Source: Pyramidobacter porci
GTDB taxonomy: Bacteria; Synergistota; Synergistia; Synergistales; Dethiosulfovibrionaceae
Length of the DNA: 64,000 nucleotides
Direction: 5' to 3'
Assembly: GCF_009695745.1 (NCBI RefSeq)
Contig: NZ_VUNH01000001.1
Coordinates: 62,001-126,000 of the forward strand
Below, piece by piece: positions 7,459 through 16,950 of the stretch (its first letter is position 1; every line of letters begins with the position of its first letter). The notes below the pieces were generated by a model that saw only the letters and a program-made list of their open reading frames with translations, had not been told where the DNA came from and did not search any database. Both the position numbers and the translations under genes were made by a program.

Positions 7459-8208
7459 ATGTTCAAACGCATCGCCGCACTTTCCGCTCTGTTTGCTTTG
7501 GCCGCAAGCGCCGCTTTCGCGGCTTCGGCCCTGGACAAGGACACGCTGGTCGCCGCGACCGAAAGCACCTACCCTCCCTACGAGTCGCGCAACGAAAAGG
7601 GCGAGCTGGTCGGCTTCGACATCGAGCTGACCGAGACGGTCGCCAAAAAACTGGGAAAAAAGGTCGAATGGCTCGACATGCCCTTCGATTCGCTGATCCC
7701 GGCGCTGATGTCGGGCAAGGTCGATCTGGTCGCCGCCGGCATGTCGGCGACGCCGGAGCGCGCCAAGCGCGTCAACTTCTCGGCGCCGTACGAGATCTCT
7801 TTCAGCGCTTTCGTCACGGGAGTCGAGAATCCTCCCAAGGACACTGACGAGCTGGCCGGCAAGGTCGTGGCGGTGCAGATCGGCACGGTGCAGGAAAATT
7901 TCGCGCGCAGCCTCGGCAACGTGGAAGTGAAAACGTTCCAGAAATTCGACGACTGCGTGCGCGAGGTCGTGCTCGGCCGCGCCGCCGCGACGCTGATGGA
8001 CATCCCCGTGGCGAAGCAGTACGTGCAGGCCAAGGATTTTGCCGGCAAGGTCACGGTCGCGTTCAACAAACAGATCACCGGCGCCGACAAGGCCATCGCC
8101 ATGCCCAAGCAGGACGAAGCGCTGACCGCCGCGGTCAACGGCGTCATCGAGGAAATGGACAAGAGCGGCGAGCTGGCGGCTCTGCGCGATAAGTGGTTCA
8201 AAGAGTAA
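7459..8208 (+). CDS. Polar amino-acid ABC transporter substrate-binding protein (orphan)
   Basis: A 249-residue family-3 periplasmic solute-binding protein. The signal peptide is about residues 1-21 (basic start, hydrophobic core, AFA cleavage). The mature part shows the family pattern: TYPPYE, GFDIELTETVAKKLG, FDSLIPALMSGKVDLVAAGMS and a C-terminal DKWF. It should capture an amino acid in the periplasm for an inner-membrane permease. No permease or ATPase lies beside it, so the partner must be elsewhere or shared. GGAGG precedes the ATG, and the gene has its own strong promoter and terminator, consistent with high expression. Confidence 0.92.
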   Translation: MFKRIAALSALFALAASAAFAASALDKDTLVAATESTYPPYESRNEKGELVGFDIELTETVAKKLGKKVEWLDMPFDSLIPALMSGKVDLVAAGMSATPERAKRVNFSAPYEISFSAFVTGVENPPKDTDELAGKVVAVQIGTVQENFARSLGNVEVKTFQKFDDCVREVVLGRAAATLMDIPVAKQYVQAKDFAGKVTVAFNKQITGADKAIAMPKQDEALTAAVNGVIEEMDKSGELAALRDKWFKE

Positions 8209-8294: not shown

Positions 8295-11200
8295 TTAATT
8301 CGTCTTGATCGGCGACGGCGGGACGGAGTTGGCCAGCACGGACTGCTTGGGCTGGCGGTGAGATTCTTCCACGGATCTGAGCGCGTTTTTTTGGATGATC
8401 TCCAATTTTTTCAGCTCGGCGGCGTGGCTGGCGTCTTTCTGAGCCAGCAGGGCAACGAGGCGCTTTTCATACTCCTGCTTGAGCGCGGCGATCAGTTCCT
8501 CGCCGCTGCGGGCGGCGGCGTTCCGAACCTGTTCGATTTCCGAGGCGCGCCGCGCCGCCAGCTCCCGTTCGCGCTCCGCCAGCCGCCGCGCAAAGTCGAC
8601 GCGCAGCGCGGCCATGTCCTGTTCCTTCTGCTGCTCCGCGCGGGCCAGCGCGCTTTTCAGGCTAAGCTCGGCCCGCGCGGCGGCTTGTTCCATCTCCTGG
8701 CGGTGTTTGGCGTTGAGAACGTCCCTGGAAGTGTCGAACTCGATCTGCTGCTGCGTTTGCTGTTCCTTGAGCATCTTGTCGTAGCGGAGTTCCGCCTGAC
8801 GAAGCGATTGGGCGTAGGCCGTTTCGAGAAGCCGGCTGGCTTCCTGCCGACCCTGCTCGATGCCGGCTTTGGTCGCCGCGGCCTTTTCTTCCGCGGCCGC
8901 GCGCTTTTGAGCTTCGGCGGCGGCCATGGCCGCGTTCAGCGCTTCGCAGCTCTGGAACTGGGCGGCGTCGAAAGCGCGCCGCAGGGCGGAGACTTTTTCG
9001 TTCAGTTCGTCGCCATGGTCCTTCTTGAGTCGATTCAGCTCGTCGGTGTACTGGGCTTCCAATTTGGAAGCGGCGTCGAACATTTCCTGACGATGAACGG
9101 TCTCCAGACGGGCTTTTTCGATCTCGAACGCGGCTTTGAGCTGAGTGTCCTGCGCCGCCAGCTTCTTGTCCAGCTCGGCGTGGAGCTGTTTCTCCCGGCT
9201 GTCCAGACGGGCCTGAACTTCAGCCAGATCCCGGGCGGACTTTTCTTTCTGCGAGTTCAGCTCGGCTTCCAGAGCGGCGGAGATTTCGCGTTCCTTCCGC
9301 AGGCTGGCGTTCAGCACGGCCAGCGTCTCGTTGAACTGCTTCTTCAGGGCGGAGTTCTCCTGCAGGGCAGCTTCCATTTTCTCGTGGAGTTCTTCGTCTT
9401 TCTGGCGGCTTAACTCCGAGATTTTGGCCTCGTGGGCTTCTTCGAGGCGCTTCTGCTGCTCGATCAGTTCCATGGCGTGCCGACTCCGTTCCTGAAGGAG
9501 CGTGTGCCGCTGTCGTTCTTCCAGGGCGGCAACGGCTTCCCGAATTTCCGCGTTAAGCTTCTGTTCGTTTTGCTGCGTAACTTCCTGCAGCTCTCTGGCA
9601 TGCCGATTCTTGAGCTCGGTCAACTGCTGTTCGTATTTCAGGGCGTTTTCTTCAAGCAGACGAGCCTGACGGGATTTCAGGTCGATAACTTCCTGTCGGT
9701 GCTGAGACAGGGCCACGCTTTGATATTGAACGGCCTGGCGGCTCTTTTCCTCGCCGGCACGGATTTGGGCATTCAATTGCTCCACTTCATTTTTGTGAGC
9801 TTCCTCGAGATGGGACTTGACCGTCGCCAAATTGTTCTCCGCCTCGGCGCGTTCTTTGCCGAAATTGGCTTCGGCGGCCGCTTTTTCTTCGGCCAGCTGA
9901 TCCGATCGCGCTTCGGCGGCCTGCAGGCGAGCAACGAGCGCGTCGATTTCGCCTTTCTGCTTTTGGAAGTTCAGCGTGTTTTCTTCAACCAGTTTGAGGT
10001 TTTTCTGCATTTCGCTCTGCCATAGCGCCGTCAGCGTGTCGATGTTCCCGCGGTTCAGCTCCAGATCTTTTCGCTGGCTGGCTTGGAGTGCCGTCAGATT
10101 ATCGGTGAGCCGGCGGATCAGGGCGTTCTGCTGTGCCGTTTGTTCGTGGCTGGCCTGAAGCTGTTTTTCGGCGTTTTGGGCCGTCTGCGTTGCGAGGTCG
10201 GCTTTTTTCCGCAGTTCGGCAGTGGCTGTCGTGAGGCGAAGGATCTCGTGCTGGTCAGCGGCCATTTTTTTATAGAGCGGCGCGACCCGCGGATCGTCCG
10301 CGGCGCCGCCGGCGCTTTTCTGGCGCTCGGCGCCGATCTGGATGCCGCGTTCTTCCGCTTCGTTCACGCTTGCGGCAATGGAGGCAAGCAGCTGCAGATC
10401 CTCGGTGGCGAACGCCGGATTGGCCTGGGCGTAATCGAGGGCGGTCTTGCCGTCGACGTCGCGGTAATCGACGCGGGCTCCGTGCGCGAGAAGCGCGGAA
10501 AGGACGTTCGGGTTGCCGTTCGCCGAAGCGGCCAGGATCAGCGCGGTGCGGCCGCGGCCATCGCGGGCGTTTTCGCGGGCGCCCCACTTCATGAGAACGC
10601 CGACGACGTCGGGATGTGCGTTGTACTGCGCGGCCCACATCAGCGGCGTCAGGCCGTCGACGGGAGCGTTCGGATCGGTGCGCGCTTCGAGGTAGAGGCC
10701 GACGCGCCGGGCCGTACCGCGGCGGCAGAGTTGGGCGAAGCGTTCCGGTCCCATGGGCGCGGGGGCATTCTTTTGCCGCGTACGCTCTTTGAGCGTGACC
10801 AGCTGTTCGGGAGCGTATTTTCTGCTGTTTTCTATGTAGCTCCAGGCCGTCTTTTTGTTGGCTCCGGTCACGGTCGGATCGGCGCCTTCGTCAAGCAGCG
10901 TGATCAGAACTTCGAAGGCGTTGCCGGCCCGCGCGGCCAGCATGAACGGTGTGGCGCCGGAGTTATCCGCGGCGGCAAGATCGGCGCCGAGATCGATCAG
11001 CGCCGCCGTGATCTCGGGATGGGGATTGCGCGCCGCGGCGAAGCTGAGCGGCGTCCAGCCGCGGGAGCCGCGTTCCTGCAGCTCGGCTCCGGCCGCGACC
11101 AGGGCGACGATAATCTCGGGATTGTCGCTGTCCTGGGCGGCGACCGCCAGGGCGCGCAGGTTGTCTTTGTTGGCGGCGTTGACGTCGCTTCCGGCGTTGA

Positions 11201-11453
11201 CGAGCAGTTTGATTTTGTCGGGATCGGCGGCCTTGCCTTTGGCCTGAGCGGCCATCATCAGCGGCGTGTTGCCTTTGGCGTCGGCTTTGCCGACGGAGAT
11301 CCCTTCGTCTTTTAGAGCTGCGGCGACCTGCAGCGCGTCGCCGTTGAGGCAGAGGTCCATGAACTCCTTCTGCGAAAGTCCCCACGCGGGGGTACAGAAA
11401 CAGACGGCGGCGAACGCGAAAAACGCCGAGAACTTGCTTTTGAGCAGAGTCAT
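8295..11453 (-). CDS. Exported ankyrin-repeat / long coiled-coil protein, 1052 aa
   Basis: An N-terminal signal peptide (about 1-25, cleavage near PAWG) is followed by seven or eight ankyrin repeats in two groups (about 57-205 and 260-360; TPLMMAA, TPLSFAA, TPLMWAA and TALILAA cores). Then comes a coiled coil of roughly 600 residues (about 400-1020) very rich in E, K, Q and A. The C-terminus is short, with two prolines, and lacks a membrane anchor. It would lie in the periplasm or be exported. Ankyrin repeats bind proteins and the coiled coil may span or brace the envelope, but no substrate can be named. AAGGAGG lies 13 bases before the ATG, longer than normal. It is a single gene. Confidence 0.85.
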   Translation of the reverse strand: MTLLKSKFSAFFAFAAVCFCTPAWGLSQKEFMDLCLNGDALQVAAALKDEGISVGKADAKGNTPLMMAAQAKGKAADPDKIKLLVNAGSDVNAANKDNLRALAVAAQDSDNPEIIVALVAAGAELQERGSRGWTPLSFAAARNPHPEITAALIDLGADLAAADNSGATPFMLAARAGNAFEVLITLLDEGADPTVTGANKKTAWSYIENSRKYAPEQLVTLKERTRQKNAPAPMGPERFAQLCRRGTARRVGLYLEARTDPNAPVDGLTPLMWAAQYNAHPDVVGVLMKWGARENARDGRGRTALILAASANGNPNVLSALLAHGARVDYRDVDGKTALDYAQANPAFATEDLQLLASIAASVNEAEERGIQIGAERQKSAGGAADDPRVAPLYKKMAADQHEILRLTTATAELRKKADLATQTAQNAEKQLQASHEQTAQQNALIRRLTDNLTALQASQRKDLELNRGNIDTLTALWQSEMQKNLKLVEENTLNFQKQKGEIDALVARLQAAEARSDQLAEEKAAAEANFGKERAEAENNLATVKSHLEEAHKNEVEQLNAQIRAGEEKSRQAVQYQSVALSQHRQEVIDLKSRQARLLEENALKYEQQLTELKNRHARELQEVTQQNEQKLNAEIREAVAALEERQRHTLLQERSRHAMELIEQQKRLEEAHEAKISELSRQKDEELHEKMEAALQENSALKKQFNETLAVLNASLRKEREISAALEAELNSQKEKSARDLAEVQARLDSREKQLHAELDKKLAAQDTQLKAAFEIEKARLETVHRQEMFDAASKLEAQYTDELNRLKKDHGDELNEKVSALRRAFDAAQFQSCEALNAAMAAAEAQKRAAAEEKAAATKAGIEQGRQEASRLLETAYAQSLRQAELRYDKMLKEQQTQQQIEFDTSRDVLNAKHRQEMEQAAARAELSLKSALARAEQQKEQDMAALRVDFARRLAERERELAARRASEIEQVRNAAARSGEELIAALKQEYEKRLVALLAQKDASHAAELKKLEIIQKNALRSVEESHRQPKQSVLANSVPPSPIKTN

Positions 11454-11679: not shown

Positions 11680-13290
11680 ATGACGACAACTGTGCGAGAA
11701 ACGTTGGCCCTTGAATCTTTCAAAGGATTTCATGTGCTGGCGGGATTTGGCGGGCTTGACCGGGAAATTTCCACCACGACTTTTATCGAAGCCCCCGATT
11801 CGTGGAAATGGATCCGCGGCGGCGAGTGCGTGCTTACGCTGGCCTACGCGTTTCAGACGGAGGAACAGCTGCTCGCGCTCGTCCGCGAACTGATCGAGCG
11901 TCAGGCCACCTGCATTGGCATCAAGACCGAACGCTACATCAAACAGGTTCCCCAGTCGGTGCTCGATTTGGCCGACCAGCACAAATTCCCCATCATCGAC
12001 ATCCCCATTTCCGTCCCCTTTGCCGCCATCATTCATCCGGTGCAGTCGCTGATCATTCACGATCAGGCGCGTCTGCTCAAATACTCCGAAAAAGTTCGCC
12101 ACACCTTTTTCGGCCTCAGCGTGCGGGCGGCGGAGATTGAGGAGATCATGCAGGTGCTCTGCGAATTCACGCACGTGGATCTGGCCTTCATGGATCTCGC
12201 GACGGACAGGAAATACATTTTCTCCGATTCGCCCCAGCTGCCGGCGGCGTTGGGTACGCTTCCGCTCAAGGACGTGCTGAATCTTTATCCCCACGAGGAC
12301 GTGATGCTCAACGGCCGGCTTCTGGGACACCTCATTTTCGACGCCGACGCCGAAAAGCTCAAAGACCGCTGGTCGGAGATCCCGATCAACCAGGCCAAAG
12401 GCGCGCTGCTGCTGTACTTTCAGCGCCGCGAAGCTCAGCATCAGGTGGAATCGCGTTATCGCAACGAATTCGTGCAGGATCTGATCACCCGCAACATCCG
12501 CATGGAGCAGGAGGCGTGGAACCGCGCCAAAAGCTTCAACTGGAATCTCGAAGGCCCCCAGCGCGTGGTCATCGTCGACATCGACAACTACAAGAGCTGC
12601 CTGACCCGCGCCATTTCCGGCGGCCAGGGCGTGAACGCCATCGAAAACAGCAAGTCGCGCATCTACGCGATCGCCCGATCGTTCCTGGCGCGTCTTAACG
12701 GCGGAAAATATCCCTACGCAGAGATGAGCGACTCGATTGTCTTTATCTTTCCTTCGGGCGACGAAAACGGGGGAGGATTCTTTAACGACCTGCTGCGGCG
12801 CACTCTGGTCGATATGATGAAGGTAATCCAGACCGAAACCGGTTTTACGGTGACAGTCGGCGTGGGCGATCCGTGCAACAACGTCTTCGACTGTCCCGAA
12901 AGCTACCGTCAGGCCCAGCAGGGACTTGAACTTCTGCGTCTCAGCACGGGCGGCAACGTCATCGCATCGTGGTCGGAAATGGGAGTCTATAAACTGCTGC
13001 ATGGCGTGGCCGGAACTTCCGAGGGCCGCAGCTTCATGGAGCGCTATCTGGGGCCGCTCCTGAACGATGAACGGCCTGCCGGCGCCACGCTGCTGGATAC
13101 GCTTCAGACGACGGTGAGCTGCAATTGGAACTTGAAAGATGCGGCCATGGCGATGGACGTTCACTATAACACGCTCAAGTACCGTTGGCGGAAGATCTGC
13201 GATCTCCTCGGCATCGATCCGTCCAAAAGCGGCGACCGACTCAACGTGATGATCGCATTGAAGCTGTACCGCATGCACAAAAACGCGTAA
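11680..13290 (+). CDS. PucR/CdaR-family transcriptional regulator
   Basis: The 536 residues have the PucR layout: an N-terminal PucR sensing domain (about 1-125; GGECVLTLAYAF, IKTERYI), a central GGDEF-like CdaR region (about 270-420) and a C-terminal PucR-type helix-turn-helix (about 475-525; NWNLKDAAMAMDVHYNTLKYR). Known members sense metabolites and control purine, sugar-acid or amino-acid catabolism. It precedes the DUF5058/M20 peptidase cluster in the same orientation, which I take as its likely target. An AAGGAG lies upstream of the ATG, and an inverted repeat sits in its own promoter. The 570-residue frame on the other strand is a shadow. Confidence 0.88.
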   Translation: MTTTVRETLALESFKGFHVLAGFGGLDREISTTTFIEAPDSWKWIRGGECVLTLAYAFQTEEQLLALVRELIERQATCIGIKTERYIKQVPQSVLDLADQHKFPIIDIPISVPFAAIIHPVQSLIIHDQARLLKYSEKVRHTFFGLSVRAAEIEEIMQVLCEFTHVDLAFMDLATDRKYIFSDSPQLPAALGTLPLKDVLNLYPHEDVMLNGRLLGHLIFDADAEKLKDRWSEIPINQAKGALLLYFQRREAQHQVESRYRNEFVQDLITRNIRMEQEAWNRAKSFNWNLEGPQRVVIVDIDNYKSCLTRAISGGQGVNAIENSKSRIYAIARSFLARLNGGKYPYAEMSDSIVFIFPSGDENGGGFFNDLLRRTLVDMMKVIQTETGFTVTVGVGDPCNNVFDCPESYRQAQQGLELLRLSTGGNVIASWSEMGVYKLLHGVAGTSEGRSFMERYLGPLLNDERPAGATLLDTLQTTVSCNWNLKDAAMAMDVHYNTLKYRWRKICDLLGIDPSKSGDRLNVMIALKLYRMHKNA

Positions 13291-13362
13291 CGGAAACAGC
13301 CGATCCTCATGGCCGTATGATGGTAAAATGTCGGCGCAGTATTGTCTCTTGAATACAAAACA

Positions 13363-13402
13363 AGCCACGGGAGCATGAAAATAGTCTCTCGTGGCTATTT
13401 TT
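13363..13402 (+). terminator. Terminator after the PucR-type gene
   Basis: AGCCACGGGAG pairs with CTCTCGTGGCT (one G-U), ending near 13396, and is followed by ATTTTTAT. It separates the regulator from the transporter genes transcriptionally. Confidence 0.75.
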
Positions 13403-13501
13403 ATCGACGTTAATTTGTTGTAATTCGAAAAATCGATATAAAAAAAAGAACTCAGATCGACGTTATGAAAAAATCTCCTTGTTTTTTGTCTTTTAAGAAC
13501 A

Positions 13502-13530
13502 TTGATGTTTGTGAAAGAAATATTTATGAT
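13502..13530 (+). promoter_or_regulatory. Promoter of the DUF5058/M20 operon
   Basis: TTGATG (13502-13507), 17-base spacer, TATGAT (13525-13530). It lies about 120 bases before the first gene of the operon. Confidence 0.55.
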
Positions 13531-13650
13531 AGAAACGACGTCGGCGGTGAGCGCTGAAGGAGAAAAGCTGACGTGAGGCTTTATCGAAAAAGGCCGGAAC
13601 GTTGTTCCGGTTCATTTTATGGCGATCATTTTCGAGGAGGTACGGTTTTC

Positions 13651-14370
13651 ATGGAGTCTTTGCAGGAAGTTATGAGAATTGGCAACCAGCCCATGGTCTG
13701 GGCTCTCTGCGCCGTCACCGTCGTGGTGTCGCTGGTCCAGTCGCTGCTGTTCACCCGTCTGGCCAAGAGGACGGCCCGCGAAGCGCAGATCAATCCGGAA
13801 ATCACCAAGACGGCGTTCCGCGTCGGACTGATCTCGGCGATCGGTCCCGCCATCGGCGTCTTCATCGTCATGGTCGGGCTGATGGCGACGATCGGTTCGC
13901 CCATGGCCTGGCTGCGCCTGTCCATCATCGGCGCGGCCCCCACCGAGCTGACGGCGGCCACTTTGGCGGCCGAAGCGGCCGGCAGCGGCCTGGGCAAGGA
14001 GAATTTCACGCTTCAGGTCATGGCCGTGACCTGGTTCGCGATGGCCCTGAACGGCTGCGGTTGGCTCCTTGTCAGCGGGCTTTTCGCTCCCTATCTGGAA
14101 AAACTCCGTGAAAAAATGGGCGGCGGCGACACGAAATGGCTGGCCGCGATCGGCGGCGCGGCCTCTCTGGGCGTCTTCGGCTATCTGTGCAGCAACGAGA
14201 TCCGCCGCGGCACGGGCAACATGCTCGCCGCGCTGACCGGAGCTGTGGCGATGGTCTTCCTGGTTAAGTGCGTCGTGCCGAAGCATCCCAAGCTCACCGA
14301 ATACGCGCTCGGCATCGCCATGCTTTTCGGCATGGCCTGCGCCGTGATCCACGACGTCGTCATGATGTAA
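13651..14370 (+). CDS. DUF5058-family multi-pass membrane protein
   Basis: A 239-residue inner-membrane protein with five or six hydrophobic spans. It shows the pattern I associate with DUF5058: start MESLQEVMRIGN, an IGPAIGVFIVMVGLMATIG span, and WLRLSIIGAAPTELTAA. The longer frame upstream is rejected because GAGGAGG lies 11 bases before the ATG at 13651. The molecular role is unestablished; I infer a transporter subunit because it is followed by a second membrane protein and a cytoplasmic M20 peptidase, which suggests uptake of an amidated or peptidic substrate that is then hydrolysed. Confidence 0.82.
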   Translation: MESLQEVMRIGNQPMVWALCAVTVVVSLVQSLLFTRLAKRTAREAQINPEITKTAFRVGLISAIGPAIGVFIVMVGLMATIGSPMAWLRLSIIGAAPTELTAATLAAEAAGSGLGKENFTLQVMAVTWFAMALNGCGWLLVSGLFAPYLEKLREKMGGGDTKWLAAIGGAASLGVFGYLCSNEIRRGTGNMLAALTGAVAMVFLVKCVVPKHPKLTEYALGIAMLFGMACAVIHDVVMM

Positions 14371-14397
14371 CCAGGATGGATGAAGGAGGCTTTTTCT

Positions 14398-15054
14398 ATG
14401 GATCTGAACGCTCAGTGGAAAAAAGGTTGTATCCGTATCGGCACGCCGACGAATCTTCTCGCCGCGGCCACGAGTTTTTTGCCCGTTTTGTGGCTGTGCA
14501 GCGCGTATAACTGCTGGCCCAGCCTCGACGTGGTGCTGAAGGCCTGGGGGCTTGTGGCCGCGTCCTTCGGTGCGTTCTATTTCGTCGAGCCGATTTCCTA
14601 TTATTCCGTGATCGGCCTTTCCGGGTCGTATCTCGTGTTCCTTTCCGGCAACATTGGCAACATGCGCGTGCCCTGCGCGGCGCAGGCCCTCGACGCCACG
14701 CACACCGAACCCGGCACGCTTCAGGCCGAAGTGGTCTCGACACTGGGTATCTGCGGCTCCATCGTCACCAATCTGATCGCCGTCCTCCTGGCCGCGTTCA
14801 TCGGCGCGTCCGTCGTTGCCGCGCTGCCCAAGGTCGTTTCCGACGCTTTCGTCAAGTACGCGGCCGGCGCGATTTTCGGCGGCACTTTCGGCAACTTCGC
14901 GATCAAATATCCCAAGATTGCCGTTTTCGGCCTCGCCATCCCTCTGGCGCTGATCTACTTCGCCAAAACTCCGGCCTACGTTACCATCCCCGCGGCGGTC
15001 TTCGGCTGCATCGCCATCGCCCGCGCGTTCTACGTGATGGAGAAGAAAGCCTGA
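14398..15054 (+). CDS. Multi-pass membrane protein, partner of the DUF5058 protein
   Basis: The 218 residues have about six hydrophobic segments and glycine-rich turns (GLSGSYLVFLSGNIGNMRVP, AAGAIFGGTFGNFAIKYPK). The start at 14398 is chosen because AAGGAGG lies 7 bases before it; an in-frame ATG at 14380 overlaps that ribosome-binding site. It follows the DUF5058 gene by 27 bases, so the two are probably co-expressed and may form one transport complex. I do not recognise a named family beyond this pairing. The only polar regions are the termini and one loop. Confidence 0.75.
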   Translation: MDLNAQWKKGCIRIGTPTNLLAAATSFLPVLWLCSAYNCWPSLDVVLKAWGLVAASFGAFYFVEPISYYSVIGLSGSYLVFLSGNIGNMRVPCAAQALDATHTEPGTLQAEVVSTLGICGSIVTNLIAVLLAAFIGASVVAALPKVVSDAFVKYAAGAIFGGTFGNFAIKYPKIAVFGLAIPLALIYFAKTPAYVTIPAAVFGCIAIARAFYVMEKKA

Positions 15055-15177
15055 TTTACCGAAACTGTCCAAAAAAGGTGGATTTCGAACCTCTGTATCG
15101 AGTCAGGGCGGGGACGGGCCGTCTTTCGCCCTCTCTTTTATCACGTGTATGTCATGGACTGAAAGGAGCTCTTGAAT

Positions 15178-16362
15178 ATGTGGGAGAAATGCCAATCGCT
15201 TCAAAACGATCTCGTGGCGCTGAGGCGCCGGTTCCATCAGATCCCCGAGCTGGGCGAGGATCTTCCCGAAACTCAGGCGCTGCTGTGCGCGGAACTTGAC
15301 AAGATGGGGATCCCTTACAAGAGGAACACGCTCGATTCCGGAGTCGTCGCTCTGATCGAAGGCGGCAAGTCCGGCAAAGTCGTGGCCCTGCGCGCCGATA
15401 TGGACGGGCTGCCCATCGCGGAAGCGACGGGGCTGCCCTTCGCTTCCCGGCACGAGGGGCGGATGCACGCCTGCGGCCACGACACGCACATCACGATGCT
15501 TCTCGGCGCCGCCAAAGTTCTGAACGAGAACAAAGCCGACCTGAAGGGGACGGTCAAGCTGATCTTCCAGACGGCCGAAGAGACCTGCACCGGCTCCCAG
15601 ATCATGCTCAAGGAAGGCGTGATGGAGAATCCCCACGTCGACGCCGTGTTCGGCATGCATATCGGCACCATCATCGACCCCAGTATCGCCGCGGGGACGG
15701 TGATCGTAACGCCCGGCTGCTGCATGGCGTCGTACGATCATTTCGTACTGCGCGTGACGGGCAAGGGCTGCCACGGATCGACGCCCGAGAAAGGCGTTGA
15801 CCCGATCGTCGTCGCGTCCAACATCGTGCTGGCTCTGGAGGAGATCGTCGCCCGCGAGGTGCCTTCCACCAAGGCGGCGGTCGTTACCATCGGCCGGATC
15901 CACGGAGGCATCGCCTACAACGCCATTCCCGGCGAGGTGGAGATCGAGGGGACGACGCGTGCGCTCGAAGAAGACGTGCGTCAGTATCTTGGCAAACGCA
16001 TCGGCGAGATCGCCGCAGGCATCGCCAAATCCTACCGCGCCGAGTGCGCGTACGAGATGATCTGGGGCGCGCCCCCCGTGGTGAACGACGAAGAAATGGC
16101 GAAACTGGCGGCCGGCGCCGCGGCCAAAGTGCTGGGCGAAAGCGGCGTGATCACCTCCATTCCCGCGCCGAACATGGGCGGCGAGGATTTCGCGTTCTAT
16201 CTCAGGGAACGTCCCGGCGCTTTCATGTTCCTGTCCTCGTCGAACCACGAAAAGCACACCGACGGCCCGCATCACAACCCTCATTTCGACGTTGACGAAG
16301 ACGTGTTCTGGAAAGGTTCGGCGGTCTTCGTTTCCATCGTCGAAGATTATCTCGGCAAATAA
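15178..16362 (+). CDS. M20D-family amidohydrolase / metallopeptidase
   Basis: A 394-residue zinc-dependent M20 enzyme. Seen: the metal-binding HACGHD (about residue 100), ALRADMDGLPI, the catalytic glutamate in TAEET, a dimerisation-domain HGSTPEKGVD stretch and the late GGEDFAFYL metal ligand. Relatives hydrolyse N-acyl amino acids, indole-acetyl conjugates or dipeptides. ATG 15178 is preferred over TTG 15172 because AAGGAG then sits 9 bases away. It lies 123 bases after the membrane-protein pair and probably acts in the cytoplasm on what they import; the substrate is unknown. Confidence 0.93.
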   Translation: MWEKCQSLQNDLVALRRRFHQIPELGEDLPETQALLCAELDKMGIPYKRNTLDSGVVALIEGGKSGKVVALRADMDGLPIAEATGLPFASRHEGRMHACGHDTHITMLLGAAKVLNENKADLKGTVKLIFQTAEETCTGSQIMLKEGVMENPHVDAVFGMHIGTIIDPSIAAGTVIVTPGCCMASYDHFVLRVTGKGCHGSTPEKGVDPIVVASNIVLALEEIVAREVPSTKAAVVTIGRIHGGIAYNAIPGEVEIEGTTRALEEDVRQYLGKRIGEIAAGIAKSYRAECAYEMIWGAPPVVNDEEMAKLAAGAAAKVLGESGVITSIPAPNMGGEDFAFYLRERPGAFMFLSSSNHEKHTDGPHHNPHFDVDEDVFWKGSAVFVSIVEDYLGK

Positions 16363-16377
16363 GACGGCCGCCCGGCG

Positions 16378-16641
16378 ATGCAAAGCAAAGGCCTGTACTA
16401 CACGCTGCTCTACGTCGGCGTCTTGATCGTTTTTTATTATCTCTTCATCCTGATCCCGGGAAAGAAACGGAAGCGCGCGCACGACGAGATGCAGCAGTGC
16501 GTGAAATCCGGCGACCGCGTCGTGACCATCGGCGGCGTCAAGGGAACGGTAGTCGAGGCCGGCGAGGAAACTCTGGTCATTGAAACGGGCGGCAGCCGCA
16601 TCGAAATCCTTCGCGGCGCCGTGCAGATGGTCTGCAAATAA
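16378..16641 (+). CDS. yajC: YajC, preprotein translocase accessory subunit
   Basis: An 87-residue protein of YajC layout: one N-terminal membrane span (about 8-26, ending FILIPGKKR), then a small beta domain with the conserved SGDRVVTIGGVKGTV pattern at about 43-57. YajC associates with the SecDF accessory complex of the Sec translocon in the inner membrane. It begins 15 bases after the M20 gene with a weak ribosome-binding site and ends at a strong terminator. No secD or secF lies next to it, unlike the usual yajC-secD-secF order. Confidence 0.9.
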   Translation: MQSKGLYYTLLYVGVLIVFYYLFILIPGKKRKRAHDEMQQCVKSGDRVVTIGGVKGTVVEAGEETLVIETGGSRIEILRGAVQMVCK

Positions 16642-16740: not shown

Positions 16741-16768
16741 TTGACAACTTTATGGGGCTGTGTATAAT
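16741..16768 (+). promoter_or_regulatory. Consensus promoter of the metK transcript
   Basis: TTGACA (16741-16746), 16-base spacer and TATAAT (16763-16768): both hexamers match consensus exactly. Transcription would begin just before the riboswitch. Confidence 0.92.
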
Positions 16769-16780
16769 GAATCGGTAAAA

Positions 16781-16950
16781 CTCTTATCGCGAGTGGCTGA
16801 GGGACTGGCCCGACGACGCCCGGCAACCTGCCCGTAAGGGAGTGTGGTGCCAAAACCAGAGACCGGCTTTTGCGATCGAGCCGGATCGGATGATGAGAGG
16901 AGCATACTCGGCGGCTTGTGAGTCTCTCCTCGTGGAGAGGCTCTTTTTTT
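16781..16950 (+). promoter_or_regulatory. SAM-I riboswitch (S-box leader) with terminator
   Basis: The S-box core is visible: CTTATC at the start, GGCTGAGGGACTGGCCC, GACGCCCGGCAACC and GGTGCCAAAACCAG. These are the P1/P2, kink-turn and SAM-pocket elements of the class. The expression platform is a stem at 16920-16943 followed by seven T. By established mechanism, SAM binding favours the terminator and shuts off metK. It lies between a consensus promoter and metK, so it closes a feedback loop on SAM synthesis. Confidence 0.96.

Follow-up and report, generated by a model that had tools for sequence, protein, structure and literature searches.

The gene order found in one stretch of the Pyramidobacter porci genome raises the question of what two small membrane proteins do beside an amide-cleaving enzyme. 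The stretch, referred to as the window, comprises 64,000 nucleotides (contig NZ_VUNH01000001.1, positions 62,001 to 126,000). In an earlier note, a PucR-type regulator, a DUF5058 protein, a second membrane protein (here designated MP2) and an M20 amidohydrolase had been read in line at 11680-16362, and all four open reading frames (ORFs) were confirmed at these positions. This line-up is not due to chance, because 122 clusters holding the DUF5058-MP2 pair display the same arrangement. The answer proposed here, to which we assign a probability of about 0.6, is that DUF5058 and MP2 form an importer of two subunits, as yet unnamed, which takes up small amide-linked carboxylates and would feed an exchangeable cytoplasmic hydrolase.

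The window DUF5058 protein matches PF16481 with 223.2 bits against a gathering cut-off of 28.2 and covers positions 1-222 of the 222 in the profile. DUF5058 is a Pfam family without a described function, and a search of 5.39 million papers for the terms DUF5058 and PF16481 found no paper. For MP2, which is annotated as "hypothetical protein" in plasmid records, no Pfam match was obtained even at E-values up to 10, and none was found in NCBIfam or among PDB sequences, where a profile search gave one match for MP2 at E 1.8 and none for DUF5058. No homology between the two proteins was detectable with hhalign (probability 1.3). Both contain several hydrophobic segments with near-invariant charged or polar residues in or beside them. 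Conserved positions are N12, Q30, R89 (99%) and E99 (97%) in DUF5058, and E70 (91%), Y84, N91 (94%), N94, R96 and S127 (97%) in MP2.

For the counts, 157 loci were grouped into 123 clusters at 90% MP2 identity; in one of them (L136) the contig lacks MP2, and three run into contig ends. L001-L004 and L056-L076, which are duplicates of larger stretches or M20-only stretches, were left out, as was a second draw overlapping largely with the genomes of the Bacillota draw; L182 was added after the count. Genes were called as heuristic longest ORFs, with some start sites and small genes wrong. In 121 of the 122 non-redundant clusters holding MP2, DUF5058 lies directly before MP2, with a median gap of 14 nt (9 nt in the window), and the order is reversed in the remaining one (L114). 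The two proteins thus behave as a unit, and the pair is obligate.

The pair was identified in Synergistota, Bacillota, Pseudomonadota, Actinomycetota and haloarchaea, with a patchy spread. DUF5058 was present in 53 of 149 Synergistota genomes and scored over the cut-off in 31 of 398 genomes of the Bacillota draw and in 1 of 299 Pseudomonadota genomes, the latter being the centre genome of that draw itself; none of 14 control genomes contained it. From the Synergistota, 61 of the 80 places over the cut-off were read (60 fetched and the window), the Bacillota survey yielded 33 places (32 fetched and L007), and four further loci came from another search. Plasmids of haloarchaea, Paracoccus, Vibrio and Arthrobacter relatives also carry the pair, both proteins being encoded in 12 of 12 plasmid records. 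The genome of the window (2.5 Mb, 22 contigs) holds four pairs, and its nearest named relative is Pyramidobacter sp. C12-8, with an MP2 98% identical. At the locus with the reversed order (L114:9071-10506, minus strand), the genes are flanked by glycine reductase component C genes on one side and two sodium:alanine symporter genes on the other.

When MP2 was used as query, 39 of the 40 clusters of close relatives obtained contained an M20 gene. Since this sample is biased, the estimate was taken from the DUF5058 family surveys and the plasmid searches, which gave 91 clusters, 88 of them assessable and 3 cut by contig ends. With an M20 gene counted as partner when encoded on the same strand within 1.6 kb of the pair, the 88 clusters comprised 63 with M20, 17 with another amide or peptide hydrolase, 3 with another enzyme and 5 with none. 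By Pfam, the other hydrolases belong to Amidase, Amidohydro_1/3, M42, M19, M81/MlrC, ATC hydrolase, a C45-type acyltransferase family and isochorismatase, the labels of non-M20 enzymes having been assigned by hand from the Pfam results. The earlier note had tied the pair to M20 and held that membrane pairs commonly found without M20 would speak against its proposal. This turned out to be half the case: M20 is missing beside the pair in 25 of the 88 clusters, and because 17 of these 25 hold another amide or peptide hydrolase, the rule is pair plus amide hydrolase, not pair plus M20. Co-occurrence across genomes bore out the pair and its hydrolase as a unit, and did not bear out M20 as the sole hydrolase.

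As a control, other genes of the same stretches were compared. The listed hydrolase families account for the next downstream gene on the same strand in 98 of 109 instances, for its upstream counterpart in 20 of 68 and for 5 of 665 genes that lie beyond three positions. This contrast is somewhat flattered for the non-M20 families because the neighbours themselves supplied the list of families. For M20 alone, the figures are 81 of 109 downstream versus 4 of 665 farther off. With 16 M20 genes in a 2.5 Mb genome, the chance that a random place has a same-strand M20 so near is roughly estimated at about 1%. The control also bears on the suggestion that the pair serves as a channel for ions or small molecules, such as ammonium, protons or potassium, to balance amino acid fermentation. 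The small size of the subunits and the TRIC cation channel genes near haloarchaeal copies (4 of 6 records) would fit, and several weak matches to K2P channels were listed by VIA (Z up to 5.5). These matches, however, lie within the noise described for the tool, and a channel would not explain why amide hydrolases occupy 98 of 109 downstream positions and 5 of 665 distant ones. A channel is considered very improbable.

The four pairs of the window genome adjoin three classes of hydrolase, namely M20 in the window, two M20 genes (L097), Amidohydro_3 (L098) and Amidase (L099). On a tree of the concatenated pair proteins, 17 changes of the M20 label are required, and well-supported branches force at least 12 of these, as judged by a quick method and with some long branches in the tree. 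Conversely, the pair-linked M20 enzymes do not form one clade, since 7 changes, 4 of them forced, separate 90 linked from 15 unlinked sequences. The same pair family has therefore combined with different hydrolases on several occasions; the hydrolase was swapped between lineages while the pair family stayed fixed. A mirror-tree comparison of MP2 with the partner M20 gave a rho of 0.543 (permutation maximum 0.271) with agreement for 45 of 90 nearest neighbours, and little weight is placed on it because shared descent confounds it.

The exchange of partners is of importance for a second explanation, by which the pair does not transport at all but serves the hydrolase as a membrane anchor or regulator, or as a sensor of its substrate. 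Its constant adjacency to a hydrolase would be accounted for, as would the failure to find a known carrier fold and the small YajC-like protein encoded in one clade (see below). However, the partners derive from at least eight unrelated enzyme families, which would hardly offer a common docking surface, and both proteins have conserved charged and polar residues in or beside their membrane segments. This explanation is regarded as improbable.

In the mechanism proposed for the importer, DUF5058 and MP2 would together make up a membrane carrier with two subunits. It is assumed to work by secondary transport or facilitation, because neither an ATPase nor a solute-binding protein, as an ATP-binding cassette (ABC) or tripartite ATP-independent periplasmic (TRAP) importer would need, is encoded in the window operon; the gene for a nearby solute-binding protein is cut off from the module by a gene on the opposite strand. 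The carrier would bring in small amide-linked carboxylates, such as N-acyl amino acids, dipeptides and similar amides, and the adjoining enzyme, in the window the M20D amidohydrolase, would cut the amide bond inside the cell to yield an amino acid for fermentation. Since the carrier family is fixed and the hydrolase is exchanged between lineages, each copy would handle another substrate. Gene order, conservation, the linkage to a hydrolase, its exchange and the second YajC were observed; we infer complex formation by the pair, the direction of import, its coupling and the substrate class, as well as the roles of PucR and the YajC-like protein.

The linkage to a hydrolase fits either direction of transport, so that the pair might also export or exchange the product of the hydrolase (an amino acid or acyl acid) or act as a substrate/product antiporter. 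Most of the operons seen contain no other carrier, and for FarA of the far operon a function as antiporter has been proposed (PMC10838667). On the other hand, a product exporter would leave substrate uptake to a further carrier, none of which is conserved beside the pair, and the products to be exported vary widely across the hydrolase classes. Export or antiport is considered unlikely, and the import-then-hydrolysis idea of the earlier note, widened to exchangeable hydrolases, is the best reading.

Several points weigh against import by the pair. Five of the 88 survey clusters have no enzyme partner, and in three the partner is a non-hydrolase or uncertain (CapA-like, Far and Grd). The list of other hydrolases was compiled after inspection of the neighbours, and the link to glycine described below is thin outside the haloarchaea (4 clusters). 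The gene neighbourhood cannot separate substrate import from product export or from membrane anchoring of the enzyme. In addition, no fold or profile match to a known carrier was obtained with models that are weak: AlphaFold2 gave mean predicted local distance difference test (pLDDT) values of 68.8 for DUF5058 and 58.8 for MP2 from alignments of 47 and 50 rows, and the most conserved stretches (DUF5058 62-94 and MP2 69-93) are the least confident parts. With this weak input, the best Foldseek E-values were 2.1 for DUF5058 and 3.2 for MP2, and VIA reached a Z of 5.5 at most. The absence of a structural match is no proof of a new fold.

Carriers encoded beside M20 enzymes are known from other systems. 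AbgT acts together with AbgA/AbgB in the uptake of p-aminobenzoyl-glutamate and its hydrolysis by an M20D enzyme. The likeness to the pair lies in a carrier beside an M20D amidohydrolase and in import followed by amide cleavage. However, AbgT is one large protein (PF03806), whereas the pair consists of two proteins of about 230 amino acids with an exchanged hydrolase, and no PF03806 match was found for the window DUF5058 or MP2 at E-values up to 10 or in 50 MP2 members at 0.05. In E. coli, the two adjoining membrane proteins YjiG and YjiH are encoded next to the isoaspartyl dipeptidase IadA. They resemble the pair in lying beside an amide or peptide hydrolase of the amidohydrolase superfamily, but carry Gate domains, for which the pair proteins gave no match in Pfam searches.

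In the genome of the window itself, 4 of the 12 M20 loci without a pair encode a carrier component directly beside M20 on the same strand, namely a DcuC carrier (PF03606) in L187, L193 and L194 and an ABC peptide-binding protein in L189. In L191, a DcuC gene lies one gene away from M20, and at the remaining pair-less loci apart from L192 no same-strand carrier was seen in the heuristic gene calls. DcuC/YfcC-type carriers occupy the same operon slot beside M20 as the pair, which counts in favour of a carrier role for it, as do the hydrophobic segments and near-invariant residues of both pair proteins; they are, however, single large proteins without any similarity to the pair found. With AbgT, and with DcuC beside M20, modules of carrier plus hydrolase are already known; what would be new here is the family of the carrier. 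Another candidate carrier is encoded at L192:2885-4051, directly before M20 (388 amino acids, about nine membrane segments, no Pfam match). Near DcuC and M20, L193 and L194 also contain an aminotransferase-fold enzyme, identified by Pfam in L193 and PatB C-S lyase-like by eye in L194, and both gene sets look like mercapturate breakdown.

A few further loci count in favour of a carrier or give leads to its cargo. L111:6431-9067 encodes FarE (NF053623, 694 bits against a cut-off of 675) and a FarB homologue whose gene has an in-frame TGA; the pair follows, and the neighbouring genes called there showed no other carrier. In the farACEB operon of Cloacibacillus, the carrier is the major facilitator superfamily (MFS) protein FarA (PMC10838667), whereas in L111 the downstream pair is the only candidate for a carrier that was seen. 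Because the far link is confined to a single locus, fluoroacetate was rejected as a general cargo. In L116, the genes flanking the pair encode a PatB C-S lyase and an M19 dipeptidase, a layout that would be expected for the uptake of cysteinyl-glycine conjugates.

In 5 of 6 haloarchaeal plasmid records, gcv, glyA, lpdA or lipA is located near the pair and its M20; in the sixth, from Halalkalicoccus, none of these genes was found within 5 kb. Among the clusters, the linkage to gcv is restricted to haloarchaea, and outside them genes for Grd/Far-type reductases lie within 4 kb of the pair in four clusters (L032, L111, L114 and L170). This hints at glycine-releasing amides as cargo in the haloarchaeal and the Grd/Far-linked clades. 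As a general cargo, such amides were reduced to a lead, and the glycine link is too thin to be carried over to the window copy, for which they are kept as one lead because 5 of 6 haloarchaeal copies lie near genes for glycine cleavage or associated functions. No glycine riboswitch was found in the examined part of the window, where an S-adenosylmethionine (SAM) riboswitch was the only one, or in eight loci, where only a selenocysteine insertion sequence (SECIS) element turned up. Genes for TRIC cation channels lie close to the haloarchaeal pairs, in divergent orientation, in 4 of 6 records (L140, L144, L181 and L182).

M20D enzymes are characterized by HACGHD and GGEDF motifs and a catalytic glutamate pair. 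The window M20 protein scores 338.7 bits with TIGR01891 "amidohydrolase" (cut-off 153.75), which places it in M20D, and stays below every NCBIfam equivalog cut-off (CpsA 365.5 versus 500, DoeB2 296.3 versus 550). It aligns over its full length with YxeP (1ysj, 2e-75) and ILL2 (1xmb), and its motifs MHACGHD, QTAEE, FGMH, GGEDFA and HHNP line up with those of both, with small differences. No signal peptide was seen by eye at the N-terminus, and the enzyme is presumed to be cytoplasmic.

Of the further genes that might belong to the module, the earlier note, which counted PucR into a single catabolic module, had overlooked a fifth one, encoding a YajC-like protein 15 nt behind M20. Pair and hydrolase stand as the unit; PucR does not, since 31 of 93 M20 clusters, and none of the 21 with other enzymes, have it no farther than 4.2 kb from the pair. 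It is an optional regulator and not a core part of the module. PucR is presumed to be an effector-sensing activator, which in the window would probably activate the operon in response to the compound or its product.

Directly behind M20, the YajC-like gene occurs in 18 of 28 rows of the window clade; no other cluster has it there. The window genome has two YajC genes, the one outside the module scoring higher. Of sixteen genomes searched (the handles G098 and G462 being the same assembly by coordinates), 14 contain two YajC genes and one has a single copy, while none was found in the last, a draft of 82% completeness. Scores are 62-73 bits for the module copies and 90-101 bits for the other genomic copies, which points to a dedicated duplicate. 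It shares the Pfam family (PF02699) and the small size of a membrane protein with the SecDF-associated YajC, but differs from it as a second copy tied to the M20 gene, and it may be a clade-specific accessory subunit. The fuller proposal, that the pair represents an unnamed two-subunit carrier family of Bacteria and Archaea dedicated to amide-linked amino acids for an exchangeable intracellular hydrolase, and that one clade recruited a YajC duplicate as third subunit, is given an even chance. If true, it would reveal a role of the YajC family outside the Sec machinery, and the second YajC offers a way to probe YajC-like roles besides helping SecDF. The module is carried by many gut, oral and rumen anaerobes living on amino acids, and also by haloarchaea. 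If the pair is a carrier, the adjoining hydrolase reveals the bond in its cargo, which would make the cargo of many "hypothetical" carriers directly testable.

Table 1. Genes and elements of the module and its borders (positions in the window)
Feature	Position	Strand	Details
Solute-binding protein	7459-8208		Outside the module
Upstream border protein	8295-11453	-	1052 aa, divergent; ankyrin-looking and coiled-coil by appearance; signal-like start
PucR-type regulator	11680-13290	+	536 aa; Pfam PucR, GGDEF_2 and HTH_30
DUF5058 membrane protein	13651-14370	+	239 aa; PF16481; presumed transporter subunit 1; start taken as ATG 13651 (mechanical ORF begins at 13573)
MP2, second membrane protein	14380-15054	+	224 aa; adjoins DUF5058; presumed transporter subunit 2
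M20D amidohydrolase	15172-16362	+	396 aa; alternative ATG at 15178; Pfam M20 and M20_dimer
YajC-like small membrane protein, module copy	16378-16641	+	PF02699, 70.5 bits against 28.2; TIGR00739, 62 against 44.2
Sigma-70 consensus	16741-16768		12/12 match
SAM riboswitch	16781-16899		65.2 bits; followed by metK

In the window, MP2 and M20 are separated by 117 nt, and antisense ORFs overlapping the module genes were not counted as genes. A palindrome upstream of DUF5058 (13592-13612) was dropped as an element, since it is not kept in L005 or L006. Downstream, the module is bordered by the SAM riboswitch and metK, ahead of which the sigma-70 consensus is located. Upstream, it is bordered by the divergent ankyrin-looking protein, and ORFs resembling it by eye were also seen near M20 genes in L186 and L191.

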